Assembly (NCBI GenBank): GCA_009377665.1
Contig: WHTO01000009.1
Location: forward strand, 1-36,247
DNA: 36,247 nt
DNA from: Dehalococcoidia bacterium
GTDB lineage: Bacteria > Chloroflexota > Dehalococcoidia > WHTO01
Direction: 5' to 3'
The notes beneath the pieces were generated by a model. It ran no database searches and had not been told where the DNA came from. It saw only the letters and a list, made by a program, of their open reading frames with translations. Every line of letters starts with the position of its first letter. The stretch's first letter is position 1. This document shows, one piece after another, positions 1,899 to 4,280 of the stretch. The position numbers and the translations under genes were made by a program.

Positions 1899-3590
1899 GA
1901 AGATCACGAACTCGCGCTGCTCGCCCCACGCCTCCCGCAGCGTGCGGCAGATCTCGCCCATCGTCATCTGGTTCTCGACCGCCTCGATCAGCACCGGCAT
2001 CGTGTTCTCATTGGAGAGCGCTACGTCGGCCAGCCGCGCCCGCATGCGCTCGACGGCCGCGCCGTCCCGCCGCGACCTGAGCTCCGCGAGCCGTTCGGAC
2101 TGCTTCTGGCCGACCGTCGGGTCGACGCGCATGATGTCCTGCACCTCCGGCTCCTCGCTCTGGAACTCGTTGACGCCGACGATGATCCGCTTCTTCTCCT
2201 CGACCTGCATCACGTAGCCGTACGAGGCGTCCTGGATCTCCTTCTGCTGGAACCCCCGCTCGATGGCCTCCAGCGACCCGCCCAGGGCGTCGATCTGGTC
2301 GATGTACCTCGACGCCTCCTCCTCGACCTGGTCGGTGAGAGACTCGACATAATATGAACCGGCGAAGGGGTCCACGGTATCGGCCACGCCGCTCTCGTAA
2401 CCGATGATCTGCTGCGTCCGCAGCGCGATCTCGACCGACTTCTGCGTCGGCAGCGAGAGCGCCTCGTCGCGCGAGTTGGTGTGCAGCGACTGCGTGCCGC
2501 CGATCACGGCGGCCAGCGCCTGGATCGCCGTGCGCACGATGTTGTTGTCGGCCTGCTGGGCGGTCAGCGTCACGCCCGCCGTCTGCGTGTGGAAGCGCAG
2601 CATCATCGAGCGCGGGTCCTGCGCCTTGAAGCGGTCCCGCATGATCCGCGCCCACATCCGCCGCGCCGCCCGGAACTTCGCGACCTCCTCGATGAGGTTG
2701 TTGTGGCAGCCGAAGAAGAACGACAGCCGCGGCGCGAAGTCGTCCACGCTGAGCCCCGCCTTGAGCGCCGCCTCGACGTAGGCGACGGCGTTGGCCAGCG
2801 TGAACGCGATCTCCTGGGGTGCCGTCGCCCCCGCCTCGCGGATGTGATAGCCGCTGATGCTGATCGTGTTCCACTGCGGCACGCTGTCGCGGCAGAACGC
2901 GAAGAGGTCGGTGATCAACCGCATCGAGGCCTGGGGCGGGAAGATGTACGTCCCCCGCGCGATGTATTCCTTGAGGATGTCGTTCTGGACCGTCCCGCCG
3001 ATCTGGTCGAGCGCCACGCCCTGGCGCTTCGCCACCGCGCAGTAGAGCGCCAGCAGGATCGACGCCGTCGCGTTGATCGTCATCGACGTCGTCACGTCCG
3101 ACAGCGGGATGCCGTCGAACAGCCGGTTCATGTCCTCGATCGAGCAGATCGAGACGCCGACCTTGCCCACCTCGCCCGACGCCATCGGGTCGTCGGCGTC
3201 GTAGCCGATCTGAGTCGGCAGGTCGAAGGCTACAGAGAGCCCCGTCTGGCCGTTATCGAGCAGGTAGCGGTAGCGCCGGTTGGACTCCTCCGCGTCGCCG
3301 AACCCAGCGTACTGCCGCATCGTCCACAGCCGCCCGCGGTACATAGTAGGCTGCACCCCACGCGTAAACGGATACTCCCCAGGGAACCCCAGCCGTTCAA
3401 GGTAATCCCATCCGCCGCCGTCTTGTAGGGGCGCATCGCCATGCACCGTCCCATCCCCGCCGAGGTCCGAAGGGTCGTAGACCGGCTGCACCGGCGTCCC
3501 CGAAGACGTAGCGAACAAAGCCTCACGCTCGCCAGCCTTCCTAACCGCCGGCCCATAGACCTTCTCAGCCCATTCATCACGCGTCGTCAT
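1896..3590 (-). CDS. mutB: Methylmalonyl-CoA mutase, large (catalytic) subunit
   Basis: A 564-residue catalytic TIM-barrel subunit of adenosylcobalamin-dependent methylmalonyl-CoA mutase, which interconverts methylmalonyl-CoA and succinyl-CoA. The protein ends at REFVIF with no B12-binding domain, so the cobalamin-binding subunit must be encoded elsewhere, as in other split mutases. RQYAGFG and [11 protein letters not shown] carry the Tyr and Arg that distinguish methylmalonyl-CoA mutase from isobutyryl-CoA mutase (Phe and Gln there). SGYHIREAG holds the active-site Tyr-His, and LRFHTQTAG and [10 protein letters not shown] are family signatures. The ATG at 3590 directly abuts the hicA stop (TAGATG), so it now sits at the end of a hicBA-mutase operon. 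The first 300 bases use more AT-ending codons than the rest, and the first 141 bases are repeated upstream at 4140-4280. Confidence 0.96.
3450..3590 (-). repeat. 141-bp direct repeat (copy inside the live mutase gene)
   Basis: Bases 3450-3590 and 4140-4280 match at about 127 of 140 positions, with a constant offset of 690 bp and no gaps. Both copies begin at the mutase start codon. The hicBA module lies exactly between them. Confidence 0.95.
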
Positions 3591-3816
3591 CTACAACTCC
3601 AGGAACTCATCAACGGTAAGTCCTGCCTCTTTGACATTCGTGTTAACCAGGCCTTCGGGCAGTTCGCCAGGGTGTCGGGGTACAGTCGTCCGTGCTCGCG
3701 TCTCCGGGTTCCACCAGATTTCATGGCTCCCCTTTCCGGAGCGATCAAAGACGAAGGCTGCACGCCTGAGCTTCCGGATAACGTCCCCGTGCTCTGAAGC
3801 CGGCCAGCCGGCCCAT
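3591..3816 (-). pseudogene. hicA: HicA-type toxin gene with a single-base frameshift
   Basis: HicA is a small dsRNA-binding-fold mRNA interferase that HicB neutralises. The start ATG (3816-3814) overlaps the hicB stop by one base (TGATG) and reads MGRLAGFRAR. The frame then breaks at a run of four G (plus-strand C4, 3785-3788). With one G removed it continues DVIRKLRRAAFVFD, then GKGSHEIWW, which has the conserved GSH with the catalytic His, and ends LTVDEFLEL with TAG at 3593-3591. The restored length is about 74 residues, normal for HicA. As given, the toxin cannot be made without frameshifting. It may be a genuine inactivating insertion or a sequencing error in the G run. The stop abuts the mutase ATG. 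Confidence 0.82.
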
Positions 3817-4061
3817 CAGGAGATGGCGACGGGAATCCTGGTTTCGGTTGTCCCCGCTGCCTGCTCGCGCAAGGCGGGCGGCAGTTCGTCTCCATGCTCT
3901 TCGTAAGATTCAACCAGCTTACGGGCCACGTCCTGGGCTATCTCCAGCGTCTCAGCGAGCGTCCGCCCGTGGGCGATGAGCCCGGGAAGGTCCAGGCTGG
4001 TTGCGAGGAAGCCCCCTTCTGGTAGCTCCTCAACCTGCACGGCGATCAATATTTCCTTCAT
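3816..4061 (-). CDS. hicB: HicB-family antitoxin
   Basis: An 81-residue protein with the HicB partial-RNase-H fold pattern: MKEILIAVQVEELPEGGFLA, then SLDLPGLIAHGRTLAETLEIAQD, matching the family consensus xxGGYxAxxPxLPGxxxxGxTxxEAxxN. It lacks a clear C-terminal DNA-binding domain, as in many short HicB proteins. It comes first in the pair, the hicB-then-hicA order found in many genomes, and overlaps hicA by one base. AAGG about 11 nt upstream may be the ribosome-binding site. A 14-bp palindrome 22 nt upstream of the start is a likely autoregulatory operator. Its partner toxin is frameshifted, so the antitoxin may no longer be needed. Confidence 0.87.
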   Translation of the reverse strand: MKEILIAVQVEELPEGGFLATSLDLPGLIAHGRTLAETLEIAQDVARKLVESYEEHGDELPPALREQAAGTTETRIPVAIS

Positions 4062-4082
4062 TTCAGTCTCAGCCTTCTGCCC

Positions 4083-4096
4083 TCAGGTTAACCTGA
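4083..4096. promoter_or_regulatory. Perfect 14-bp palindrome upstream of hicB, putative operator
   Basis: TCAGGTTAACCTGA is its own reverse complement and lies 22 nt before the hicB start. Toxin-antitoxin operons are commonly autorepressed at such sites. The operator role is inference. Confidence 0.55.
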
Positions 4097-4136
4097 CCTG
4101 TCGCCAATCCCATTGTTCGACATCTCCCCCGCCATC

Positions 4137-4280
4137 CTACCCATCCCCGCCGAGGTCCGAAGGGTCGTAGACCGGCTGCACCGGCGTCCCGGAAGACGTG
4201 GCGAACAGCGCCTCCCGTTCGCCGGCCTTCTCAACCGCCGCCCCGTAGACCTTCTCGGCCCATTCCTCACGCGTCGTCAT
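4137..4280 (-). pseudogene. Truncated 5' end of a methylmalonyl-CoA mutase gene
   Basis: From the ATG at 4280 the minus strand reads 47 residues beginning [20 protein letters not shown] and ending DPSDLGGDG, followed by TAG. It matches the N-terminus of the live mutase except at three residues (D5E, P14A, R17E). Homology stops exactly at the TAG, where the live gene continues TVHGD. Its codons are more GC-rich than the matching part of the live gene. This may be the original start of the mutase gene, displaced when hicBA plus a second 5' end was inserted. Confidence 0.88.

Follow-up and report, generated by a model that had tools for sequence, protein, structure and literature searches.

A decayed hicBA pair between diverged copies of a mutase gene end suggests insertion with long target duplication in Dehalococcoidia

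Movement of toxin-antitoxin pairs without a recombinase between chromosomes is an open question that is addressed by a locus in a Dehalococcoidia bacterium (GenBank assembly GCA_009377665.1). The window is the whole stretch of DNA that was analysed, with 36,247 nucleotides (contig WHTO01000009.1, positions 1 to 36,247). The locus is read on the minus strand, where a remnant of a methylmalonyl-CoA mutase gene (4280-4140) is followed by hicB (4061-3816), hicA (to 3591), and the live mutase gene (3590-1896), which encodes 564 residues (PF01642, E = 4e-222). The live mutase ATG lies directly after the hicA TAG, and the TAGATG junction noted in the initial annotation is read in the sequence.

A 141-bp direct repeat of the mutase 5' end had been reported to enclose hicB and hicA, with about 13 differing positions and three differing residues. 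This description holds: the copies at 3450-3590 and 4140-4280 share 128 of 141 bases without indels, which leaves exactly 13 differences, and the 47 codons of the remnant agree with the live N-terminus at 44 of 47 residues (94% identity, three changes). A repeat search reports 148 nt at 90%; with blastn the match is 142 nt at 90.8% and far beyond chance (E = 3e-49). The remnant is preceded by a strong ribosome-binding-like GAGGAAGG, the original one having been kept, and its frame is terminated by a TAG just beyond the junction. A remnant that matched another mutase better would have spoken against insertion in the initial annotation; the remnant instead belongs to the adjoining mutase gene: the nearest paralogue in the source genome is 57% identical, and homologues in other genomes have 27-52% identity over the same 47 residues. 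The ORF list contains no transposase- or integrase-sized frame between the 5' repeats, in line with the initial statement that no integrase is present, and an inverted-repeat scan revealed no terminal inverted repeats in the cargo. An exact stretch of 51 bp is common to both copies and a recombinant across them has 564 codons and no stop, so that, on paper, hicBA could be lost by crossing-over between the repeats with the mutase left complete, as had been proposed. A 78-bp leader (4062-4139, minus strand) separates the remnant from hicB and contains a perfect palindrome, TCAGGTTAACCTGA (4084-4098), which is possibly an operator.

The cargo had been annotated as a hicBA toxin-antitoxin module. 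Its hicB-like antitoxin gene (3816-4061, minus strand) is intact and encodes a bare 81-residue domain without a DNA-binding domain; it is identified by a weak PF15919 match (E = 0.014) and by its clade, in which homologues are 62-74% identical and of equal length, with hicA next in most loci. The hicA-like toxin gene (3591-3816, minus strand) lies in the same operon and has a HicA body (PF07927, E = 3e-14) that retains the GSH motif, but its frame is broken in the first third. Intact relatives have 74 residues and start at an ATG that overlaps the hicB stop; here, the frame from that conserved ATG ends after 23 codons and the HicA body sits in another frame without ATG, GTG, or TTG. The module label was thus overstated with respect to the toxin: because the hicA frame is broken, the pair is a decayed module. 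In about half of the related loci, hicA is damaged or absent and hicB is still there.

HicB proteins of the same clade occur in ~20 of 393 sampled genomes of the class Dehalococcoidia, and a close HicB outside the class occurs in one genome among 400 sampled from the phylum; no carrier was found in plasmid and viral collections. At several related loci, the sequence upstream of hicBA includes a DNA methylase 3' end. At L180 (G147:C7) and L185 (G022:C76), a type III-like restriction system has hicBA between its methylase and ResIII genes; L173, L175, L176, and L182 (G239) have merely short methylase 3'-end remnants upstream of hicB, and the broken hicA of L182 is fused to the end of a restriction gene. 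This neighbourhood links the HicB clade to restriction-modification loci. A same-clade HicB also starts ~350 bp downstream of another mutase (48% identical) at L172 (G040:C180:1370-3523), where its frame is cut off by the contig end.

Similar repeats occur around other members of the clade. Twenty-five loci of the same HicB clade in other genomes were scanned for direct repeats, and flanking was called tight where both copies lie ≤150 bp from the hicBA ends. With this limit, which was chosen while viewing the data, tight flanking repeats are present at 4 of 25 hicBA loci compared to 66 of 13,798 control placements slid along the same contigs (0.48%; P ~6e-6), with repeat arrays in G305, G759, and G762 left out of the count. 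The other 21 loci have no detectable tight flanking repeat. All tight flanking repeats are host gene ends, with variable lengths of 31-352 bp. In genome G141, the 3' end of an M16 peptidase gene is repeated over 352 bp at 99%, with the second copy beginning inside the hicA TGA and the repeat adjoining a run of N in the assembly; in G185, it is the comM 3' end (35 bp, 94%), and in G187 and G741 the MTAP 3' end (47 and 31 bp, respectively). Around a hicBA with a more distant HicB in G088, the gatA 3' end lies on both sides (43 bp, 88%). The second copy starts 2-38 bp past hicA in all five genomes. In the cases read, the host gene is whole on one side of hicBA with a remnant on the other, except in the MTAP family, where remnants occur on both sides after gene loss. 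G187 and G741 share a family and a host gene, which gives about five independent events with the source window included. At L218 (G154:C3, upstream of yebC), only the two ends of an MTAP gene remain, at a site where relatives carry hicBA with MTAP or its remnants (L178; L187; L233).

An empty site is available for one of these cases. G108, a congener of G185, has no hicB and a single comM 3' end with which the downstream flank is continuous; this is a single-copy allele without hicBA. Among the fetched flanks of ~110 mutase loci from other genomes, none of which belongs to the same family, no HicB, HicA, or Uma2 was found. An origin by insertion, as initially suggested, is thus supported by analogy with related hicBA loci and with the comM empty site, but no empty mutase locus was seen.

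Codon composition provides a further view of the gene. Third-position GC in the live mutase is 0.67 over codons 1-82 (3345-3590, minus strand) and 0.96 thereafter, with a change point that none of 1000 shuffles matched in strength. The change falls 35 codons past the repeat edge, and codons 48-82, which lie outside the repeat, are as low as the repeat itself (21/35). Thirteen GC-rich homologues have a drop of ≤0.10 compared to 0.24 in the live mutase. The initial annotation had described the live 5' end as using more AT-ending codons than the rest of the gene; a difference in third-position GC from the remnant is present (34/47 versus 40/47 codons) but is not significant alone (P = 0.21), and the live copy is more AT-shifted in 9 of 11 directional differences (P = 0.07). 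Two mutase paralogues in the source genome are also low over the first 40 codons and recover by codon 41. The case for a foreign live 5' end is weaker after this control. Values for the other window genes are 0.62-0.89, and the mutase body at 0.96 may be the odd part. The GC break is real, yet it does not indicate which side is foreign because the paralogues also dip at the 5' end and the other window genes lie at 0.62-0.89. Because it extends past the repeat edge, a simple 690-bp insert does not account for the boundaries: either the tract that came in was longer than the repeat or the gene had been a mosaic beforehand. The earlier proposal that the gene was restored with the insert's own 5' version fits, but with a longer tract or a mosaic gene. 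The broken hicA, the GC change near codon 82, and a duplication of the mutase 3' end are absent from the initial annotation.

In this latter duplication (all coordinates minus strand), the final 51 nt of the mutase (1896-1946) recur at 49 of 51 positions as a remnant at 1211-1261. Uma2-A, a putative restriction-endonuclease-like protein of 184 residues (1334-1888; PF05685, E = 3e-35), lies between the copies and Uma2-B, with 183 residues (649-1200; PF05685, E = 9e-37), lies beyond, so that the remnant is situated between the two Uma2 genes. The whole repeat spans 205 bp at 94% (1742-1946 versus 1057-1261), and its gene-side copy comprises the mutase end and the 5' part of Uma2-A. A plain tandem Uma2 duplication was rejected as its source: the sequence past the two Uma2 stops differs. 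The same genome contains a uvrC-Uma2-(33 bp uvrC end)-Uma2 array that mirrors the mutase 3' layout. Tandem Uma2 pairs at the mutase locus and at L113, L114, and L116 have near-identical outer parts and a strongly different central or 3' segment, as would result from exchange of a specificity segment. An overlap of 151 bp at 99% connects the contig ends at L114 (G000:C158 start) and L118 (G000:C128 end), which probably represent a single locus that the assembler split at a Uma2 pair. Elsewhere in the window, one frame (6684-8498) joins a histidine-kinase-like protein to a response regulator with a LuxR-type DNA-binding domain, which is either a fusion or a frameshift.

The explanation that we favour, as reasonably probable, is that hicB-hicA entered at the mutase 5' end by insertion with long target duplication, with homology on the gene side and an illegitimate junction on the far side. 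The architecture, the divergence between copies, the recurrence at related hicBA loci, and one empty congeneric site are direct observations; the sequence of events is a reconstruction. The resident mutase would have been cut after codon 47 by a piece that ended in a second version of the mutase 5' end, which fused in frame to the remainder, preserving the enzyme, with the former 5' end remaining upstream as the remnant. The piece presumably came from a genome in which hicBA already adjoined the same gene. Homology on the gene side would have anchored it, and the far side would have joined without homology, as in homology-facilitated illegitimate recombination; homologous recombination on one side with illegitimate joining on the other is probably the mechanism. 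Diverged copies, repeats of gene ends only, and a GC break past the repeat edge fit such a donor fragment. The restriction to gene ends would be expected because selection for an intact gene would leave for observation only those insertions in which the gene end is rebuilt. The hicA toxin would have decayed after insertion, and the 3' duplication probably arose separately, in a like event that involved Uma2.

Several other histories would leave comparable repeats. A cassette could have made its own long target duplication in one genome, in a transposition-like manner, with identical copies that diverged later. Its end structure would be the same, and long, variable target duplications (~100 bp) are described for restriction-modification systems (PMC3874152); this account is nonetheless doubtful in view of the stronger AT shift of the live copy, which is the one under selection (9/11, P = 0.07), of a GC break that extends past the repeat, and of the lack of an encoded recombinase. 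Both mutase ends are duplicated and their divergence is similar (~9% and 4-6%), which is what a single replacement would give if a donor block of hicBA, mutase, and Uma2-A had replaced the middle of a resident mutase, with its first 141 and last 51 bases surviving outside the block. We regard this as unlikely: the GC break near codon 82 would need another cause, and at uvrC the 3' half of the pattern stands by itself, so an event with Uma2 need not be accompanied by one at the 5' end.

Gene loss and assembly error were also considered. If tandem mutase paralogues had flanked hicBA, deletion of the upstream one down to its 5' end would produce the remnant. Tandem mutase genes do occur in relatives (e.g., G058:C208, G071:C100, and G090:C238), and only fragments are left of an MTAP gene in the family of G187, but an N-terminus with 94% identity, compared to 27-52% elsewhere, would require a recent duplication that was almost wholly erased, which makes this decidedly improbable. 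With 269 contigs, 86% completeness, and 5% contamination, the assembly is a fragmented one and might have joined two strain haplotypes; we consider this very improbable given that the copies diverge by 9% and differ at three residues, that the repeat is aligned with the coding sequence, and that unrelated assemblies have the layout too. A length of 141 is also a common assembler k. A k-mer overlap artefact was dismissed for the 5' repeat, the copies of which differ at 13 sites.

Insertion with long target duplication has been described for restriction-modification systems (Nobusato et al. 2000; Furuta et al. 2010), as reported in PMC3874152, PMC3031569, and PMC1643837, with long and variable duplications of ~100 bp according to PMC3874152. 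The locus works like such an insertion: a selfish pair lies between long, variable target repeats (141 bp here) without a transposase, and at comM, around a related hicBA, a relative has a single-copy empty allele. It is a variant outside the restriction-modification series because the cargo differs, being HicBA (and Uma2) rather than restriction-modification; in addition, the repeats, which are host gene ends, have diverged, and the host group is different. Compared to classical transposons and insertion sequences, there is no transposase and repeat lengths vary (31-352 bp) rather than being short and fixed. Homology-facilitated illegitimate recombination is known from laboratory transformation and conjugation (PMC3240628), and merodiploids are made by transformation (PMC3784515); one homologous and one illegitimate junction would give a partial gene duplication beside new DNA, although at the mutase locus the process is deduced from structure alone. 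HicAB toxin-antitoxin systems (PMC2701414) share the HicA body, the HicB-like partner, the single operon, and the scattered distribution, whereas here hicB precedes hicA, HicB is a bare 81-residue domain, and hicA is frame-broken. No report of such insertions for toxin-antitoxin pairs was found in open-licence full text, which is not proof of absence.

A footprint like that of restriction-modification insertions is thus repeated around one HicBA clade and involves gene ends in every case read. Gene-end duplications around related pairs suggest spread by insertion that spares the host gene and needs no transposase. It is conceivable, though we hold it only tentatively, that HicBA and Uma2 pairs spread recombinase-free within the class by one common route, in which a donor fragment with the pair and the neighbouring host-gene end recombines into that gene in another genome, by which the gene is rebuilt and the old end is left behind. 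The footprint can be searched for, as gene-end repeats next to the pair, and provides a route that can be tested. If this proves true, the ends of core genes would be recurrent landing sites for small selfish pairs such as HicBA and Uma2.
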